64,000 bases of DNA from a bacterium D16-56 (GTDB lineage Bacteria; Bacillota; Clostridia; Lachnospirales; Lachnospiraceae), in assembly GCA_003611875.1 (NCBI GenBank), contig RAYY01000001.1, positions 310,001 to 374,000 of the forward strand, given 5' to 3'. A program made the position numbers and the translations under genes. Shown one piece after another: positions 16,686 through 58,598 of this stretch. The notes beneath the pieces are model-generated. The model was not told where the DNA came from. It saw nothing but the letters and a program-made list of their open reading frames with translations, and did not search any database. Numbering within the stretch: position 1 is the stretch's first letter; the number at the start of each line of letters is the position of its first letter.

Positions 16686-16736
16686 TTGGTGATAAGGCAT
16701 CCTCCTGCTTGGCGAACCTCTCCTTACCACAAGTGA

Positions 16737-17073
16737 TGGAGCTGAGGGGAATCGAACCCCTGTCCGAAAACCAATCCCCTGTTCTTCTACTATCATAGCC
16801 TGTTCTTTCACATTCCCTCCACCCTGCGGAAACAAGCATCCTCAGGGCTTTAGTAGCTTCATCATACGCCCGTATACGCAAAGCTTAATATACGTCGTTT
16901 CTCACAAAGTCGATGCCAGATTCTTAATGTGTGAGTGCACTAAGGCTGACAGCAGCAATTAAGCTGCGTATGCTAAATTATCTTCAGCGTTTAATTTTAA
17001 TTTTGCCGTTTAACGCACCGCATACGGATAGCTTCACCAGCTTCATGACCCCCGTCGAAACCAGTACAACCCC
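16737..17073 (-). ncRNA. ssrA: Transfer-messenger RNA (tmRNA)
   Basis: Rescues stalled ribosomes and tags the incomplete protein for proteolysis. The minus strand shows the tRNA-like 5' part (GGGGTTGTACTGGTTTCGACG), the 3' T-arm GGACAGGGGTTCGATTCCCC and an acceptor stem GGGGUUG pairing with CAGCUCC. The tag frame reads from GCA at 17006 to the stop at 16959-16961 and would encode AKLKLNAEDNLAYAA; the resume codon is inferred, the AEDNLAYAA end is secure. CCA is not encoded. A promoter lies upstream. Confidence 0.97.
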
Positions 17074-51035: not shown

Positions 51036-51120
51036 TTCTTGTTAGCCTGCCGTAAGGCAGGCTCTTTAGAAAAGTTCTGCCCCACGACATGTTTGTTTTT
51101 TGTTACGCTCATAGTATATG
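51036..51120 (-). promoter_or_regulatory. SASP leader hairpin and candidate sigma-G promoter
   Basis: A perfect 8-bp hairpin AGCCTGCC-TTAC-GGCAGGCT precedes the SASP ribosome binding site. About 50 bp further upstream CATATACTA resembles a forespore sigma-G -10 box; the -35 is not clear. The rest up to 51283 shows nothing. Confidence 0.45.
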
Positions 51121-51283
51121 TGTTCAAAAAAATAATACACTAGAAGCTTCTGCGTAATTTGTCAGAAATTTGAAACTTTTCATCATGGCTGGAAATTACA
51201 AAAAACTGCTTTATACTAATACATCGCTGCACTAATCTCGAAGTAAATAGTGCTTGATATTCGTGCCAGCCTTCCCATAGGAT

Positions 51284-52339
51284 CTACATGGTAGTAAAGC
51301 GGTAGATGGTGGTAGTTCTGTATTCTTCCCCTGCCTTCAAAAACGGCGACGGGAACTGCGGCTTATTGACAGCGTCCGGAAAATGCTGTGTCTCAAAGCA
51401 ATATCCGTGGCGGGCCTGATATTCCACCCCATCCTTTCCGATTCCATCCAGCATATTGCCTGTATAGAATTGTACCCCTGGCAGATCCGTATAAACCTCC
51501 ATCACACGTCCGCTGGCTTCGTCCACTGCCTTTAAGGACAAGGCCAGCTCTCCTGCCGGATGGTTCAGCGCCCAGTTATGGTCATATCCTTTTCCAAAAA
51601 TCAGCGGTTCATAGTCTGCTGCGATATCCTGCCCGATTGTCTTTAAGGAGGTGAAATCCATGGGAGTTCCCTTTACCGGAACCAGCTCTCCGGTGGGAAT
51701 GGAATCCTTATCTGTAACCGTGAAGAAATCCGCGTCGATCCACACCTTCTGATTCAGTACGCTGCCTGACTGATGGCCTGCAAGATTAAAATATGCATGA
51801 TTGGTAAAATTTGCCACTGTATCCGCATCTGCCTTCATAAAATAGTCCAGGCGAAGGCTGTTGTTCTTTGTCAGGGTATAACTTACATGAATATCGGCAT
51901 TTCCCGGATATCCCTGATCTTTGTCAGGGCTGAACAGCGAAAAGCAGATCCTGATGCCGTCCTCTGTCTCCTCCACCTTGGTATCCCACAGCCGGTCACG
52001 GTAATAGTTCAATCCGCTGTGCAGATTGTGATGGTCTCCTGAATTAACATCCAGGGTATAAGTATGACCGTTAAGCGTAAAGGATGCGCCGCCGACCCGG
52101 TTGGCATTGCGCCCTACAATCTCCCCCAAATGGCCGGATAAGGTCAGGCAGCCCTCTGCCGTTCCCCTGCCCAGAAGAACATCCTCCATCTTCCCGTTCT
52201 TGTCCGGCACGATCATAGAAAGCCAGATACCGCCCAAATTGGTAAATGACGCAGATACGCCGTTTTCATTGGTCAGGATGTATTTTTCTGCCTTCTCACC
52301 ATTCTTCAATGTGCCGAAGCCTTCCTTTTTCCACCCCAT
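51284..52339 (-). CDS. galM: Aldose 1-epimerase
   Basis: Interconverts alpha and beta anomers of aldoses such as galactose and glucose. The 351-aa beta-sandwich enzyme shows GRNANRVGGASFTLNG, DHHNLHSG, the catalytic His in FTNHAYFNLAG, FGKGYDHNWAL and PGVQFYTGNML. AAGGAGG precedes the ATG. It follows the RNA-repair-like operon by 139 bp but has its own promoter there. Confidence 0.96.
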   Translation of the reverse strand: MGWKKEGFGTLKNGEKAEKYILTNENGVSASFTNLGGIWLSMIVPDKNGKMEDVLLGRGTAEGCLTLSGHLGEIVGRNANRVGGASFTLNGHTYTLDVNSGDHHNLHSGLNYYRDRLWDTKVEETEDGIRICFSLFSPDKDQGYPGNADIHVSYTLTKNNSLRLDYFMKADADTVANFTNHAYFNLAGHQSGSVLNQKVWIDADFFTVTDKDSIPTGELVPVKGTPMDFTSLKTIGQDIAADYEPLIFGKGYDHNWALNHPAGELALSLKAVDEASGRVMEVYTDLPGVQFYTGNMLDGIGKDGVEYQARHGYCFETQHFPDAVNKPQFPSPFLKAGEEYRTTTIYRFTTM

Positions 52340-52389
52340 AAGCCAAAATCCTCCTTAAATTATTGTGAATTTTATTCAGAACCTTTTTC

Positions 52390-52418
52390 ATTATAACGCA
52401 AGACCTTCCATTCGTAAA
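52390..52418 (-). promoter_or_regulatory. Promoter of galM
   Basis: TTTACG, 17-nt spacer, TATAAT on the minus strand, 50 bp before the galM start. Confidence 0.7.
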
Positions 52419-52478
52419 GGGAAGACATTCTTTCATTCTGCGATGCTTGCCTTAAGAGTGATCCAGGATAGATCATCC

Positions 52479-53024
52479 TTACATTTTTTCCAAATATTCA
52501 GCAGGAACAGCTTTTATGAGCCAGACGCCGTTTACCGACCGATAAAACACACCTCCGTGGTTCTCCATCTGCCTGCTCTTAACCCGGTATACCACCGGAC
52601 TTCCATGGCGGCTTCCTACCTGTCTGGCTGTATCCTCGTCTTGAGACAGGTGTACATACAGCCTGCTCTTTGGAAGAAGACCGGTTCTGTCAATGGATTC
52701 CGCAAATTTTGCTCCGGTTCCATGGTACAGGTACTCCGGCGGCGACACCACCGAAAGCTCTACATCCACGGGAATGGAATGCCCCTGGTTTGCCCGGATC
52801 AGGGTTTTATCTTCATTGAAGGAATACCGCATTTTCCTGTCCGTCCGCACAATTTCCTCCAGCATTTCCCTGTCAAACGGCCTTGACCTTCTGATTCCCT
52901 CAATCAACGCCTCCACCTCTGCCCAGCCATGCTCGTCCAGGGTAATTCCCGCTGCATCCGGATGGTGGCGCAGTATCAGGCTGATGAATTTGCTGATGCT
53001 GTTTAAATCAGATTGCTTACTCAT
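52479..53024 (-). CDS. kptA: RNA 2'-phosphotransferase, Tpt1/KptA family
   Basis: Transfers an internal RNA 2'-phosphate to NAD, giving ADP-ribose 1'',2''-cyclic phosphate; in fungi this finishes tRNA splicing, while bacterial targets are unknown. The 181-aa protein shows LRHHP (18-22), RANQGHS (77-83), YHGT (100-103) and YVHLS (123-127), the conserved RNA- and NAD-binding set. It ends an operon with two RlaP-type nucleotidyltransferases, TatD and DUF503; the DUF503 gene stops 6 nt upstream. Confidence 0.95.
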   Translation of the reverse strand: MSKQSDLNSISKFISLILRHHPDAAGITLDEHGWAEVEALIEGIRRSRPFDREMLEEIVRTDRKMRYSFNEDKTLIRANQGHSIPVDVELSVVSPPEYLYHGTGAKFAESIDRTGLLPKSRLYVHLSQDEDTARQVGSRHGSPVVYRVKSRQMENHGGVFYRSVNGVWLIKAVPAEYLEKM

Positions 53025-53030
53025 GGATCT

Positions 53031-53312
53031 CTACCTTATTTCCCTTTCCTCTGCCACAATCTCCGCCTCTGTATTCTCCTCTGTAAAATGAAGGATCTCA
53101 TCCATCACACGGTCTGCCTGGGCGCTGTGAGGCACAATCGCCGCCACGCCGATGACAATGGACTGGTGAATGTCCTGATCCTCCACCTCTGCGGCTGATA
53201 TCTGAAATTTGTTTCGGATTTTCGCCAAAATGCTTTTCACAACCATTCTCTTTTCCTTCAGGGAATGAACCCAGGGAGCATACAGCTTTAGCTTCATCAC
53301 TGCCACCTTCAT
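53031..53312 (-). CDS. DUF503 family protein (YlxP-like)
   Basis: A 93-aa protein of the DUF503 family. VMKLKLYAPWVHSLKEKRMVVKSILAKIRNKFQISAAEVED is typical, as is the alternating alpha/beta rest. The relative in the nusA-infB-rbfA operon of Bacillus is thought to work near the ribosome; the biochemical role is unknown. Here it sits 6 nt before kptA and 63 nt after tatD, an unusual location. Confidence 0.88.
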   Translation of the reverse strand: MKVAVMKLKLYAPWVHSLKEKRMVVKSILAKIRNKFQISAAEVEDQDIHQSIVIGVAAIVPHSAQADRVMDEILHFTEENTEAEIVAEEREIR

Positions 53313-53375
53313 AAACTTCCCCCTTCTTCTCTCATCAAAATTTCCCCCTTCCTCCAGCCATGCTTTAAAAGCCTT

Positions 53376-54158
53376 CTATTGGATTCCAAAAATCCTCTCT
53401 GTATTCTGCCTTGCATGCAGAATCAGCTCATCCTCCGCTATGCCCATGTACTTGGCCAGCTCCCTTGCCACATACACAATATTTTCCGGCACATTGATCC
53501 TTCCCAGTCCCGGCACATCGCGGGGTGTCAGGTAAGGAGCATCGGTCTCGATCAAAATCCGGTCAAGAGGGATGATTTTCACTGCCTCCCGCAGCTCCTT
53601 TCCTCTCCTGTCATCACAGATCCATCCGGTAATTCCAATGGAAAAGCCCATGGACAGATATTGATCCAGCACCTTTTTATCCCCGGTAAAGCAGTGAACC
53701 ACCGATTTTCTGCAAATGTCAGGATGCTTCTTAAACCTTCTGACAAACTCCTCCGCAGCCCCGCGTTCATGAAGAAACAAAGGCTTGTCAAGCCCCTCTG
53801 CCAGCACGATATGCTTTTCCAGACACCGGATCTGATTCTCCCGCGACGAAAACATTCGGTCAAAATCAAGTCCGCATTCCCCCACTGCAAGGATCCTGTC
53901 ATTTTCCCCCATCAGACGCTTAATCTGCTCAAAATCCTCTTTTCTCGCAGAATCCGCATTGTGAGGATGGATTCCGGCTGTCCCATAAGCCTTATGGGTT
54001 CTGAGAAAGGCATCAATCTGTTGATTTTCTCGTCGGTCCGTGCCTGTCAGAATACAGCACACGCCATTTGCCAGACCATTCTCCACAATCCTTTCCGGAT
54101 CCGGGAATTGTCTGCAGAACAGATTCACCCCGATATCATAATACTTGATCTCATTCAT
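53376..54158 (-). CDS. tatD: TatD-family nuclease
   Basis: A 260-aa metal-dependent hydrolase with 3'-5' exonuclease activity in characterised relatives, on DNA and RNA. It carries the E. coli TatD-type start DIGVNLF in place of the HxH motif, then GIHPHNAD, GECGLDFDRMFSS, VVHCFTGDKK, SIGITGWICDDRRG and ETDAPYL. These match TatD itself rather than YcfH/YjjV. It lies between an RlaP-type gene (34 nt upstream) and DUF503. Confidence 0.93.
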   Translation of the reverse strand: MNEIKYYDIGVNLFCRQFPDPERIVENGLANGVCCILTGTDRRENQQIDAFLRTHKAYGTAGIHPHNADSARKEDFEQIKRLMGENDRILAVGECGLDFDRMFSSRENQIRCLEKHIVLAEGLDKPLFLHERGAAEEFVRRFKKHPDICRKSVVHCFTGDKKVLDQYLSMGFSIGITGWICDDRRGKELREAVKIIPLDRILIETDAPYLTPRDVPGLGRINVPENIVYVARELAKYMGIAEDELILHARQNTERIFGIQ

Positions 54159-54192
54159 TTTTTACCATCCCTTTCTCATTCTCAACCGTTTT

Positions 54193-54996
54193 CTATATAT
54201 CTTCCTGAAAACCAGTTATTTCCGTCAGCCGAAGCATCCTTTGAAAGCATTCATTCAGTTTCTTCCAATCCTTGTTATGATCATCCCTCATCCTGTGAAC
54301 AATCCCCTTCTGCCTTTCCAGCTCCGTTTCGATAAATCGAAGAATGACCGGTAAATGTGGCTTTAATTCCTTCTCTTTGGTAAACCTTTTCTTCTCCAAA
54401 AGCTCTTCCATTGCCTCCCGCAGCTCCTTTTCCGGCTCCGCCGCACGTAACAATTCTGCGAAAAGAACCGGCGGCGCCTGGTGAAACTGCTCAATATAGA
54501 CCGCAGCAAGCAATGGCCGCAATGCATAAAAATACTTCTTATAGCTGACCAGTTCACCGCAAAGCGCATCACAATAGGTATTGCTGGCAGTTCCATAATA
54601 GTGGCCGGCTGCCGACTTCTCCGAAAAATAAGCCTTGGAAACCTCCTTGATCTGCTCCCACTCCTCTGTGGTCCGATAGATCTCCGGAGAATTGCTCCAC
54701 TCAAAAAGCGTGGCGTTTCCTCTGTAAAACTGCTTCAGCGCCTTTTTCAAATCCCATCCGTTTATATCCAGCACCTCATCCATCTGCCATTCAATTACAT
54801 CCCGCGGTTCGTCCAGCCGCAGGTAATCTCTCATGGACCTTACATAGATAAACCGTACATCATAGTCACTGTCCGGCGACGCAAATCCCCATGCCCGGCT
54901 TCCGGACTCAACAGCATGGAGAATCCGGACGCCCTCGTGCCCTTCTATCTCGGTCAGCTTTTTGTCAATTTCCTGTCTGATATTGTACCTTTCCAT
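54193..54996 (-). CDS. RlaP-type nucleotidyltransferase (copy 1)
   Basis: A 267-aa member of the DNA polymerase beta-like fold called RlaP, known from RNA-ligase and RNA-repair neighbourhoods. The active site reads GSRAWG (32-37) with the metal pair DYD (44-46), then IEWQMDEVLDINGWDLKKALK, WSNSP and a helical C-terminus. No ribosome binding site is close to the ATG: GGAGG lies 21 nt upstream at the end of the previous gene, so coupled or weak initiation is likely. Confidence 0.88.
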   Translation of the reverse strand: MERYNIRQEIDKKLTEIEGHEGVRILHAVESGSRAWGFASPDSDYDVRFIYVRSMRDYLRLDEPRDVIEWQMDEVLDINGWDLKKALKQFYRGNATLFEWSNSPEIYRTTEEWEQIKEVSKAYFSEKSAAGHYYGTASNTYCDALCGELVSYKKYFYALRPLLAAVYIEQFHQAPPVLFAELLRAAEPEKELREAMEELLEKKRFTKEKELKPHLPVILRFIETELERQKGIVHRMRDDHNKDWKKLNECFQRMLRLTEITGFQEDI

Positions 54997-55012
54997 TTTT
55001 ATTATACTTGTT

Positions 55013-56044
55013 TCAGTCCTCCTGTCCCTGCCCTGTCACCACATACCGGTTGACCCGCTCCACATACGTCTCCACCAGCCTCATATCCGGGTTATCCGGC
55101 AGCCGGGTCTTTCTGGCTGCTTCCTCCATCCTGCGCTCATAATCTTCCAGGATTTCATAGAACTCCGGGGAAAAGCCGCCGTCTGTCTGACGAAATTCTC
55201 CCCGGCGAATTTTCATAAGAAGCTCTGCCTCCTCCCTGCGGTGGGTGCGGATTTCCCTCAGCTCCAGAATATCCACAGCCATCATAAACAAACGGATCAA
55301 ATGCATGGCATGCTTATTCAAATGCATTTCATCCTTCTTTTTGTTTCTTTTTCCGATCTTGTCATAATCCTTTACCACCGACCGCATAATCCCCAGCATA
55401 TTGCTGTAATCCCTGAGCGGAAGATGCTGATAGGACGCATCCATAAAAATCTCGGTATCCAGCCCGGGATTTTCTGCCTTGTCAATGTAGAGGCGGATGG
55501 TTCCCTTTTTGAAAACGCCGTATCTCCGGTTAAAATCCTCCATGGCATTTCGGACGGACTTTAAAATGTGGATCTCCCGCTCGCTCTGAGCCATCGAATC
55601 CCTTGCTAAAGCATTCTGCAGGCGGCGAAGCTGGGCATCCGCATATCCGCCAAAGGACTGAATCGCCCTCTTGGAAAGAAAAAGACCGCGGTTGGCAGCC
55701 AATTCCTTTCCCAGCTCCGACTGAATCAGGTACTGATCCTCATCCAGCCCCAGGATCTCACAGGTGTTGGGATTGCATTCCAGCAAAAGCCGGATGATTT
55801 TATTAAAACCATAGATCACGGTGTCTGTATGTTCATCCTCATACTGCTCAAACCGGGTCATGCCAATCAGATCCGAAGGAAGCTGCAGTGTAACTCCCCG
55901 GAAATCAATATCACTGCTCTCCTGGCTGGTCCCATATGCATGGCTTCCCCCAAGACCCAGAAGCATCACTCTGCCTCCCAGACGGGGATGGATCCGAAGA
56001 AAATCATATTCCTTTGTTTGTATGATTTGGTTAAAATTCAACAT
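55013..56044 (-). CDS. RlaP-type nucleotidyltransferase (copy 2)
   Basis: A 343-aa second RlaP-type enzyme, diverged from its neighbour. Active-site pattern GGSHAYG (32-38) with DID (45-47), then FNKIIRLLLECNPNTCEILGLDEDQYL and a long helical C-terminus rich in Arg/Glu. I chose the ATG at 56044 (GGGAG 8 nt upstream) over 56059, because the promoter would leave the earlier ATG only about 8 nt of leader. First gene of the operon RlaP-RlaP-TatD-DUF503-KptA. Confidence 0.87.
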   Translation of the reverse strand: MLNFNQIIQTKEYDFLRIHPRLGGRVMLLGLGGSHAYGTSQESSDIDFRGVTLQLPSDLIGMTRFEQYEDEHTDTVIYGFNKIIRLLLECNPNTCEILGLDEDQYLIQSELGKELAANRGLFLSKRAIQSFGGYADAQLRRLQNALARDSMAQSEREIHILKSVRNAMEDFNRRYGVFKKGTIRLYIDKAENPGLDTEIFMDASYQHLPLRDYSNMLGIMRSVVKDYDKIGKRNKKKDEMHLNKHAMHLIRLFMMAVDILELREIRTHRREEAELLMKIRRGEFRQTDGGFSPEFYEILEDYERRMEEAARKTRLPDNPDMRLVETYVERVNRYVVTGQGQED

Positions 56045-56073
56045 CCTCTGTACTCCCATTCTATAACAGCTCT

Positions 56074-56102
56074 ATTGTATCGCGAAAAGGTAAGAAATGC
56101 AA
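56074..56102 (-). promoter_or_regulatory. Promoter of the RlaP-TatD-KptA operon
   Basis: TTGCAT, 17-nt spacer, TACAAT on the minus strand, about 30 bp ahead of the first RlaP start. It shows the operon is separate from uxaC. Confidence 0.75.
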
Positions 56103-56342
56103 TCCATTTGATTTTCTGCTCAGCCTCAAAATGCCCGCTCTTGGCATTTTGGGACGTCATATGGTCAGCGCAGCCAGCACCCTGGCTTTGTTGGGGCAGG
56201 TCCTGCGCAGACCTGCAGTAAAAATCCGAGACTTTCACAGCCGCTGGCAAAGATCCATGAAAATCGGAATTTTCCAGGAAAAGCAAAAGGCCGCGCCCTG
56301 CCAGTCTTTTGACAGAACGCAGCCCAACTCTCTTTCTTTCAC
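56103..56342. other. Hairpin-rich intergenic region
   Basis: Between uxaC and the RlaP operon. Two perfect hairpins are seen: CAAAATGCC-7 nt-GGCATTTTG (56127-56151) and GCAGGTC-7 nt-GACCTGC near 56195-56218. A minus-strand frame of 113 codons crosses the region but has no ribosome binding site and overlaps both promoter and neighbouring gene. Could be a structured RNA, repeat or terminator set. Confidence 0.5.
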
Positions 56343-57743
56343 TCAAAATCCAAAAAACTCCTTCACATTCCCATAACAAATATCTTCAATGATACCCTTT
56401 AAATCTTCTTCGCTGCCAAAGTATTCTCCCCGCTCTGCCAGCCGTCCGAAATAATCGCACAGCACCCTTCGGTACAGCTCATGGCGGGGATAGCTGATAA
56501 AGCTTCGGCTGTCTGTAAGCATTCCCACGGAAAGAGACACCGGATACAGATTGGCGCATGCCTCAAACTGGCGCTGGATCCCAAATGCCTGGTCATTGAA
56601 CCACCAGGGAGCTCCCAACTGCACCTTGGCCTTTGTGCCGCCCTCGCAGAATCCTGCTGCCAGCACAGCCCAATTCTCGATCTTTGTCCCGTCAAGAGGA
56701 TACAGAATCGTCTTCGGCAGCTCTCCCATTCTGGTCAGGGCATCCAAAAGCTGACCTACGCTGTATACGCTGGTACGGTTGTCCGTACAGTCAAAGCCTG
56801 TGGATTTGCCGACAACAGCCACCTTTGCCGTGTTGGCATTTAAATAGGTGCCGATGTGAAGCTGCATCACAAAACCGTTGCGGCTGTACATGCGTCCCAT
56901 CTCCACAAGAAAAGCGCTTCGGTACTGGTCGCATTCCCTTTCTGTCAGCTTTCTCCCCTCATACGCCTTTTCCCAGATCGCCTCGATCTCTGAATCCGTA
57001 TAATCCTCCCACTTAAAGTAAGGGACTCCATTGTCTGATACCGTGGTTCCGATCTGGCGGAAAAACCTTAGCCGTTCCTCTAAAGCCGCCAGCATCTGCG
57101 CAAAGCATCCCACCTGCCTGCCTGCGCTTTTTTCCAAAAGCCCCATATAAGGGCCAAACTCCGGATCCTCCAGAAACATGGCCCGATCCGGGCGGAATGC
57201 GCTGATCACCCGGGTCTTCATGGTCGGATCCTCTCTCATCCTCTGATGATATTCCAGAGTGTCAATCGGATCCTCTGTGGTTGACACCAGCTCCACATGA
57301 GAGTGCTCCATACACCAGCGGCGGGTCATATGCTTTTGGACAATCATGGCTTTGGTCCTGTCATAAATCTCCTGGGCGTTGGCCGCTGTCACCGGCTGAT
57401 CGATACCAAAATAACGCTTCAGCTCCAGAGCGCACCAGATATAGACAGGGTTTCCGATCATCTTGGGAAGTATGGACGCAAATGCCATATATTTCTCATA
57501 ATAGCCTGCATCTCCGGTAATATATTTTTCTTCAATGCCAAAACAGCGCATGGCCCGCCATTTATAGTGATCCCCCCGCAGCCACATTTCCCCCAGATCC
57601 TCAAATTCCTGGTTCTCATACATTTCCTGCGGCTGCAGATGACAGTGATAATCAATAATCGGCAGATCTTCCGCATACTCGTGGTACAGGCGGCTTCCGG
57701 TCTTATTGGTCAAAAACAACTCCTCGCTGAATGTTCCTCTCAT
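56343..57743 (-). CDS. uxaC: Glucuronate isomerase
   Basis: Isomerises D-glucuronate to fructuronate and D-galacturonate to tagaturonate, the first step of hexuronate breakdown. The 466-aa TIM-barrel enzyme shows the metal motif DYHCHLQP, GDHYKWRAMRCFGI, STTEDPIDTLEYHQ, MQLHIGTYLNAN and GMLTDSRSFISYPRHELYRR. The start at 57743 follows AAGGAG. It is the last gene of the hexuronate operon. Confidence 0.96.
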   Translation of the reverse strand: MRGTFSEELFLTNKTGSRLYHEYAEDLPIIDYHCHLQPQEMYENQEFEDLGEMWLRGDHYKWRAMRCFGIEEKYITGDAGYYEKYMAFASILPKMIGNPVYIWCALELKRYFGIDQPVTAANAQEIYDRTKAMIVQKHMTRRWCMEHSHVELVSTTEDPIDTLEYHQRMREDPTMKTRVISAFRPDRAMFLEDPEFGPYMGLLEKSAGRQVGCFAQMLAALEERLRFFRQIGTTVSDNGVPYFKWEDYTDSEIEAIWEKAYEGRKLTERECDQYRSAFLVEMGRMYSRNGFVMQLHIGTYLNANTAKVAVVGKSTGFDCTDNRTSVYSVGQLLDALTRMGELPKTILYPLDGTKIENWAVLAAGFCEGGTKAKVQLGAPWWFNDQAFGIQRQFEACANLYPVSLSVGMLTDSRSFISYPRHELYRRVLCDYFGRLAERGEYFGSEEDLKGIIEDICYGNVKEFFGF

Positions 57744-57797
57744 CTCGGGACTCTCCTTCCAGTTTTTCAATCAGATTCCTTCCAAAATCCAATTCTC

Positions 57798-58598
57798 CTA
57801 AAACCCAATCAGTGCTCCCCCGTCAACCGGAATGCAGGCGCCGCTGATATACCGCGCCGCCTCACTGCACAGAAACGCCGCGCACATTCCCACATCCATG
57901 GGATCCCCCACACTCTTAGCCGGAATCCGGCCTAAGATCTTGGCCAGCCTTGGCGGATCATTGTCTGTAGCCTTATGAAACATGGGCGTGTCAATCCATC
58001 CAGGGGCAATGGCATTTACCGTGATCCCGTATTCTGCCAGTTCTGCAGTCAGTGTATGAATCAGTCCCAGATACCCGGCTTTAGCCGTAGAATACCCGGC
58101 CACCTGCGGCTGCCCGATGTAGCTGGTCATGGAAGCCTGGAACAGAATCCGCCCCCGGCCTAGCTCCTTCATCTGAGGGACCAGCGCTTTGGTCAGGGCA
58201 AAAGCCCCCACCAGATGCACATTCAGCACACTTACATACTCTTCCACACTCATATCCCAGATATATTTTTTGCAGTGATTTCCGGCATTGTTAACCAGAA
58301 TACTGACAGGCCCCTGCTCGGCTACGATCCGGTCTGCCATCTCCTGGGCATGGTCGGTATCCGTAATATCGAACGAATAATACACTGCCCGTCCGCCAAA
58401 CTCTGCCAAAGCCTCCATCGCCTGCTCCGGGGCCTCAAAGCTCAGCACCACAACCTTTGCCCCTGCACTTACCAGACACCGGGTAACTGCCAATCCCAGC
58501 CCGGTAGCACCTCCGGTTATGACCGCAGTCTGTCCTTTCAGACTGTAATAATCCGCCATAGAAAATGCCTTCCTTTGTTCCTCTGTAAAAGCTGCCAT
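57798..58598 (-). CDS. SDR oxidoreductase, probably hexuronate pathway
   Basis: A 266-aa short-chain dehydrogenase: cofactor motif TGGATGLGLAVTR, NNAGNHCKKY, catalytic Ser and YSTAK (Tyr-Lys) in the usual order, PGWIDTPM and the C-terminal VDGGALIGF. By position between UxaA and UxaC it likely reduces fructuronate or tagaturonate (the YjmF-type mannonate oxidoreductases are SDRs) or acts as a KduD-like enzyme. The start at 58598 has AAAGGAG and lies 13 nt past the uxaA stop. Confidence 0.9.
   Translation of the reverse strand: MAAFTEEQRKAFSMADYYSLKGQTAVITGGATGLGLAVTRCLVSAGAKVVVLSFEAPEQAMEALAEFGGRAVYYSFDITDTDHAQEMADRIVAEQGPVSILVNNAGNHCKKYIWDMSVEEYVSVLNVHLVGAFALTKALVPQMKELGRGRILFQASMTSYIGQPQVAGYSTAKAGYLGLIHTLTAELAEYGITVNAIAPGWIDTPMFHKATDNDPPRLAKILGRIPAKSVGDPMDVGMCAAFLCSEAARYISGACIPVDGGALIGF

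Follow-up and report, generated by a model that had tools for sequence, protein, structure and literature searches.

The rtcBA-type operon of E. coli is an RNA repair operon. RNA repair in jumbo phages has been described with RlaP, RNA ligases, KptA, a CCA-adding enzyme and Thg1 as its components (PMC7824862, in part). According to the available portions of the sources, RlaP of jumbo phages is predicted to restore lost nucleotides ahead of ligation (PMC7824862), and KptA is predicted to clear 2'-phosphates (PMC7824862, PMC9503650). For bacterial KptA, the accessible part of the literature describes the substrate as undefined (PMC6333775). In this study, a window of 64,000 nucleotides (nt) from the Lachnospiraceae bacterium D16-56 (the whole stretch of DNA analysed; contig RAYY01000001.1, positions 310,001 to 374,000) was studied for a cluster of five minus-strand genes. 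In the order of transcription, they encode the nucleotidyltransferases RlaPA and RlaPB, a TatD-family nuclease, a DUF503 protein and KptA, with intergenic gaps of 16, 34, 63 and 6 nt. This confirmed the five same-strand genes with gaps of 6-63 nt reported in an earlier reading of the sequence only. We believe that the cluster is probably an accessory RNA (most likely transfer RNA, tRNA) end-repair module, whose core would be RlaPA-RlaPB and which would act with RtcB and KptA. The protein families, the intact motifs, the often overlapping pairing of the two RlaP genes and the recurrent linkage to RtcB, KptA and viral CCA-adding enzyme and Thg1 genes were all observed.

The pairing was examined in bacterial RlaPA loci (best 80 of 432, biased towards close relatives). 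Of the 80 loci, 67 have RlaPB directly 3' of RlaPA and in the same orientation. A 4-nt overlap between the two genes was the commonest arrangement (41 of the 67 tandem loci, with the RlaPB starts chosen by script), and the pair was also present in locus L149 of Acetatifactor muris DSM 23669. The 13 loci scored as lacking a directly downstream RlaPB included L178 and L180, which end too early, and L171 and L167, in which a same-strand RlaPB precedes RlaPA. In a family sample of 200 genomes from 199 genera, 16 of the 17 genomes with both RlaP types held the tandem, the exception being G158, where two contigs are involved. The reversed order, RlaPB-RlaPA, occurred in G240, G048 and G060, and therefore the pairing outlasts rearrangement. 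The frequent 4-nt overlap suggests that RlaPA and RlaPB are translationally coupled; coupling of this type would make the pair, rather than the five genes, the unit. Counting fragments and the window's own genome, RlaPA was found in 12 of 61 genomes and KptA in 19. Broken or truncated RlaPA copies were present in L052 (G021), L055 (G047) and L129 (G002, contig C6), the last approximately 2.7 kb from a DUF503 gene. These copies suggest repeated loss.

Relatives of both proteins also occur in phages. RlaPA had tblastn matches in 338 of 50,697 phage records, 8 of which cover at least 80% of the query, and RlaPB, which resembles phrog_14344, matched 86 phage records. Virus-contig loci were collected for RlaPA (best 80 of 221) and for KptA (best 80 of 133); both sets are biased to close relatives and contain near copies. 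A CCA-adding enzyme gene was found in 43 of the 80 RlaPA loci and directly downstream of RlaPA in 28, where the gap ranged from -43 to +3 nt, an approximate distance taken from the end of the profile match to the called start of the open reading frame (ORF). After clustering of the virus RlaPA sequences, an adjacent CCA gene remained in 23 of 63 at 90% identity and in 9 of 24 at 70%. In these 28 loci of the virus contigs L217-L296, for example at L283:4471-6850, the RlaPA relative abuts or overlaps the downstream CCA-adding enzyme gene. The representative of this enzyme carries PF01743, PF13735 and HD. Because a CCA gene often follows phage RlaPA, the successor of RlaPA is often a second, but different, nucleotidyltransferase. 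A search of the 80 virus RlaPA loci detected no RlaPB.

Other neighbours in these 80 loci were a calcineurin-like phosphoesterase (14), Thg1 (13), Band-7 (11) and Macro-like proteins (8). One representative of each neighbour type was compared with Pfam, and all were above the cut-off except Macro, which was slightly below. Among 40 virus RlaPA loci scanned, tRNA genes were present in 11 and a transfer-messenger RNA (tmRNA) in 1. In the virus KptA loci, an RlaPA match was present in 10 of 80, which seem to represent four lineages of phages; 5 of the 80 held Thg1. Two virus contigs (L386 and L387) have the CCA enzyme, an RlaP relative and KptA on the same strand within approximately 6 kb, and in Clostridioides phage AR1086-1 (L086) an annotated kptA is approximately 5 kb from the RlaPA relative on one strand. 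We tentatively propose, while holding it rather doubtful, that RlaPA has a partner slot that is filled by the CCA-adding enzyme in many phages and by co-translated RlaPB in Lachnospiraceae and their kin, RlaPB being a second polymerase that rebuilds RNA 3' ends. If so, RlaPB would correspond in function to the CCA enzyme but serve other RNA ends, and RlaPA with its partner would be a general two-polymerase unit for rebuilding RNA ends, fed by KptA-type cleaners and RtcB. The coupled RlaP pair and its viral version with the CCA enzyme offer a concrete two-enzyme system for the biochemistry of cut tRNA.

RlaPA (55013..56059, minus strand; 348 amino acids as listed) is an RlaP/phrog_388-type Pol-beta nucleotidyltransferase. 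It scored 64.2 bits against PF10127 (RlaP; cut-off 23 bits) over residues 17-148 only, and phrog_388 covers residues 28-344 (E = 1.6e-54). G38 and S39 and the D50 and D52 of the DxD motif were invariant across 27 aligned rows, the window included, and the structure model had a predicted local distance difference test (pLDDT) score of 85.7. Translation of RlaPA probably begins at the second ATG (56044), which lies 15 nt inside the ORF of the first ATG, because the frames of several relatives open with Met near that column; the N-termini of some relatives in this comparison had been trimmed by alignment. By eye, GGGAG precedes this ATG. RlaPB (54193..54996, minus strand; 267 amino acids) is a full-length RlaP of the phrog_14344 type that scored 271 bits and spans positions 1-248 of the 249 in PF10127. 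In 24 aligned rows G32, S33 and D46 were invariant and D44 nearly so. Its model (pLDDT 92.8) aligned to nucleotidyltransferases over most of its length by VIA-align, and residues of about 124-238, in a helical C-terminal half, aligned to HEPN domains. Thus, the catalytic Pol-beta motif is retained in both proteins.

The resemblance of this C-terminal half to HEPN bundles raises another explanation, namely a defence or toxin-antitoxin-like role for the pair, in which one enzyme modifies host tRNA, a protein or an oligonucleotide signal and the other balances it. HalB of the Hailong defence system and MNT/HEPN toxin-antitoxin proteins were indeed among the fold matches. However, the 24-row RlaPB alignment contains no invariant Rx4-6H pair, which is the motif of HEPN RNases, and the catalytic motif is kept by both partners. 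The TatD protein matched QatD of PADLOC with E = 7e-17, for which PADLOC gives no cut-off, but its QatD score of 73.2 bits is far below the NCBIfam cut-off of 230. The sole PADLOC match of the RlaP proteins was PDC-S09, at E = 0.005 over a short stretch of RlaPA. MenT nucleotidyltransferase toxins, in the part of the report consulted, lengthen the acceptor ends of tRNAs (PMC11541572), while the viral relatives of RlaPA accompany genes of tRNA maintenance. Overall, we consider a defence role unlikely.

KptA (52479..53024, minus strand; 181 amino acids) is a KptA/Tpt1-type RNA 2'-phosphotransferase that scored 145 bits against PF01885 (PTS_2-RNA; cut-off 26 bits). A profile built from 10 rows matched the solved tRNA 2'-phosphotransferase 7kw8 (E = 6e-64), and R19, H20, R66 and R121, together with H101, G102 and T103, were invariant in these rows. 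The tetrad of CthTpt1 is Arg18, His19, Arg68 and Arg121 (PMC6333775, as far as that text was available), and the two tetrads were paired by position and conserved block rather than by superposition. The active-site tetrad is intact in the alignment, and the protein is a predicted 2'-phosphotransferase. In the family sample RlaP was found in 29 and KptA in 30 of the 200 genomes. Both occurred together in 14 genomes against 4.35 expected (Fisher p = 2.6e-6), and the link persisted without the window genome (p = 8.5e-6). DUF503, used as the comparison gene, had no such link, with 2 of the 29 RlaP genomes carrying it against 2.03 expected. The co-occurrence of RlaP with KptA hints at a pathway that would make and remove 2'-phosphates.

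The earlier reading had treated the five genes as one operon, and its preset test of conservation came out against a fixed order. The RlaPA clade of the window (window, L137, L138 and L139, that is, G000, G012, G023 and G022; support 100/98) contains several gene orders. In G023, all five genes are present in a different order, uxaC-TatD-DUF503-EamA-RlaPA-RlaPB-KptA. G022 has RlaPA-RlaPB-KptA, and in G012 the pair is followed by TatD after approximately 550 nt. G021, which was left out of the tree, has TatD-DUF503, a 112-residue remnant of RlaPA, and KptA. The five-gene line-up is, from these comparisons of gene order, a local arrangement, in which RlaPA-RlaPB appears as the conserved unit and the other genes as riders. 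Downstream of KptA in G016, a genome without an RlaPA match, lies a formamidase/acetamidase-type gene. In G021, G022 and G023, too, KptA precedes a gene that clusters with it, with small ORFs intervening in some. Since this gene is shared with or without RlaPA, the KptA site may predate the arrangement in the window.

It is possible, although we think it the less probable explanation, that only RlaPA-RlaPB forms a functional unit and that KptA, TatD and DUF503 are chance neighbours in one clade with housekeeping or accessory roles of their own. The TatD gene (53376..54158, minus strand; 260 amino acids; PF01026 TatD_DNase, 199.3 bits, cut-off 27) fits this well. It encodes a metal-dependent nuclease and is an accessory paralogue; its score against the best NCBIfam equivalog model, PRK10425, was 213.7 bits, below the cut-off of 395, and by PF01026 it is still a family member. 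TatD was seen inside an RlaPA locus only in the window's RlaPA clade. Within the genus, 11 of 24 genomes carried a close relative (at least 70%), and in 7 of these 11 it occurred without the other four genes in the 7-13 kb fetched, near a contig end in 2 of the 7. KptA of G016, in a genome without RlaP, and the lack of a genome-level link between DUF503 and RlaP point the same way. On the other hand, at least one rider stands beside the pair or its remnant in each of G000, G012, G021, G022 and G023, and G023 again holds all five genes.

KptA and DUF503 also recur near the pair beyond this clade, which argues against chance. Loci with KptA near RlaPA occupy three distinct positions on the RlaPA tree: the window clade; L168, where KptA, a small ORF, SfsA, RlaPA and RlaPB lie in a row on one strand (L168:4058-7805); and L206, where KptA is on the opposite strand. 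DUF503 (53031..53312, minus strand; 93 amino acids; PF04456, 109 bits, cut-off 22.4) is a small protein whose best solved-structure match was TT1725 of T. thermophilus (1j27, E = 0.0034). Its gene is near RlaPB in L206 and in L195, where the match starts around the RlaPB stop. These two loci are close kin on the tree and may represent one event; their genus may be that of the window or a sister to it. Under random placement in an assumed genome of 3.3 Mb, in estimates made after the loci were seen, 0.047 lineages with KptA near RlaPA and 0.022 loci with DUF503 near RlaP were expected, and 3 of each were observed. Without the window clade 2 of each remained (p = 0.001 and 0.0002, respectively).

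The sequence-only reading had found no visible RNA ligase. This held locally, as no RNA ligase was found by Pfam among the five cluster genes and the five flanking genes scanned, but the genome encodes two RtcB proteins elsewhere. One gene is on C179 and the other is on the window's contig at C111:101643, approximately 260 kb away, where it adjoins a Suv3-like RNA helicase gene (L058, C111:95000-110000). In 5 of the 80 bacterial loci, three of which form one clade, and additionally in L054 (G049) and L076 (G091), RtcB shares its strand with RlaPA and is no more than 6 kb away. With RtcB near some RlaPA genes, KptA co-occurring with RlaP, and the CCA-adding enzyme and Thg1 as virus neighbours, the RNA-repair context that had been proposed for the RlaP proteins and KptA was supported.

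From this context we infer the substrates, the order of steps and the joint action of the end-repair module. An RNase would cut the RNA, perhaps removing more nucleotides. KptA would then strip an end-blocking 2'-phosphate with nicotinamide adenine dinucleotide (NAD+), RlaPA and RlaPB would each restore nucleotides, the two acting at different ends or positions of the RNA, and RtcB, encoded elsewhere in the genome, would seal the break. A trimming of frayed 3' ends by TatD and an RNA-binding helper role for DUF503 are guesses, and they are the least supported parts of the scheme.

Several observations weigh against RNA end repair. The chemistry of RlaP rests on prediction, as far as the accessible part of PMC7824862 shows. 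The link of RlaP with KptA was weaker across the order: in a sample of 392 genomes, where RlaPA was counted in 29 with a strong match (E < 1e-20), 8 genomes had both genes against 3.7 expected (p = 0.02). This count excludes ten genomes whose RlaPA matches were weaker; two of them, G287 and G430, carry KptA. The co-occurrence statistics ignore genome size and kinship. KptA adjoined RlaP in 1 of the 14 family genomes that bear both, the window's own, and several of the other 13 assemblies are too fragmented to exclude adjacency. TatD and DUF503 are without wide linkage to RlaP. In viruses, the 80 RlaPA loci, covering up to 8 kb on either side, contained no KptA, and among 45 whole virus records with RlaPA just 4 had a KptA match, one of which is weak. 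Finally, the nearest folds to the predicted models were, at low similarity, adenylyltransferases for small molecules or proteins, and HalB, and such likeness of models would fit non-RNA substrates equally. It could even be read as a sign that RlaPA and RlaPB are nucleotidyltransferases of small molecules, similar to antibiotic adenylyltransferases and unrelated to RNA. We regard this as very improbable, because the likeness is generic to the superfamily (Foldseek template modelling score of about 0.4 or less, 8-14% identity) and in bacteria as well as in virus contigs the neighbouring genes are directed at RNA.

The family names that had been given to the five ORFs were all borne out, each protein exceeding its Pfam cut-off. 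The single promoter that had been proposed fared less well. A promoter-like TTGCAT-17-TACAAT (56074..56102, minus strand) was read by eye 5' of RlaPA, but the promoter scan reported nothing above threshold upstream of this gene, and the case for one promoter is weak. A terminator-like hairpin of 16 pairs with a T-rich tail is present between uxaC and RlaPA (56288..56325, minus strand) and belongs to a class of hits at chance level. In the region 51100-58000, the promoter-like hits numbered 10 (7.8 by chance, standard deviation 3.1) and the terminator-like hits in the region numbered 7 (6.0 by chance, standard deviation 2.1); both are equal to chance. By Pfam, the cluster is flanked upstream by uxaC and a short-chain dehydrogenase and downstream by an aldose 1-epimerase, a small acid-soluble spore protein and a type I 3-dehydroquinase. 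Elsewhere in the window, a lysine riboswitch (Rfam RF00168; 2618-2792) and a tmRNA (16734-17073) are on the minus strand.

RNA-repair suites with RlaP are a kind already known. The tandem RlaPA-RlaPB, the version of it with KptA and the RlaPA-CCA gene pair of phages were not found in the literature surveyed, part of which was available in excerpt, and may already be in print. Like the jumbo-phage suites, as far as the account at hand describes them, the cluster is a probable gene set for RNA repair that contains RlaP (PMC7824862). Unlike them, it is bacterial and chromosomal, has two RlaP types in tandem, and has no ligase within the cluster; neither an RlaP-RlaP pair nor an RlaP-CCA gene pair is described in that portion of the account (PMC7824862). 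Compared with the family PF10127, both proteins are above the cut-off and have the GS...DxD motifs, whereas RlaPA is matched in its N-terminal part only and is covered better by phrog_388. KptA shares with the KptA/Tpt1 enzymes the domain, the Arg-His-Arg-Arg tetrad and the HGT motif, while a tandem RlaP neighbourhood was not found in the available parts of the literature on these enzymes. Compared with the rtcBA-type operon of E. coli, the window cluster is without a ligase gene; the two are alike in that RtcB is present in the genome and, if RNA end repair holds, in having broken RNA as the substrate.

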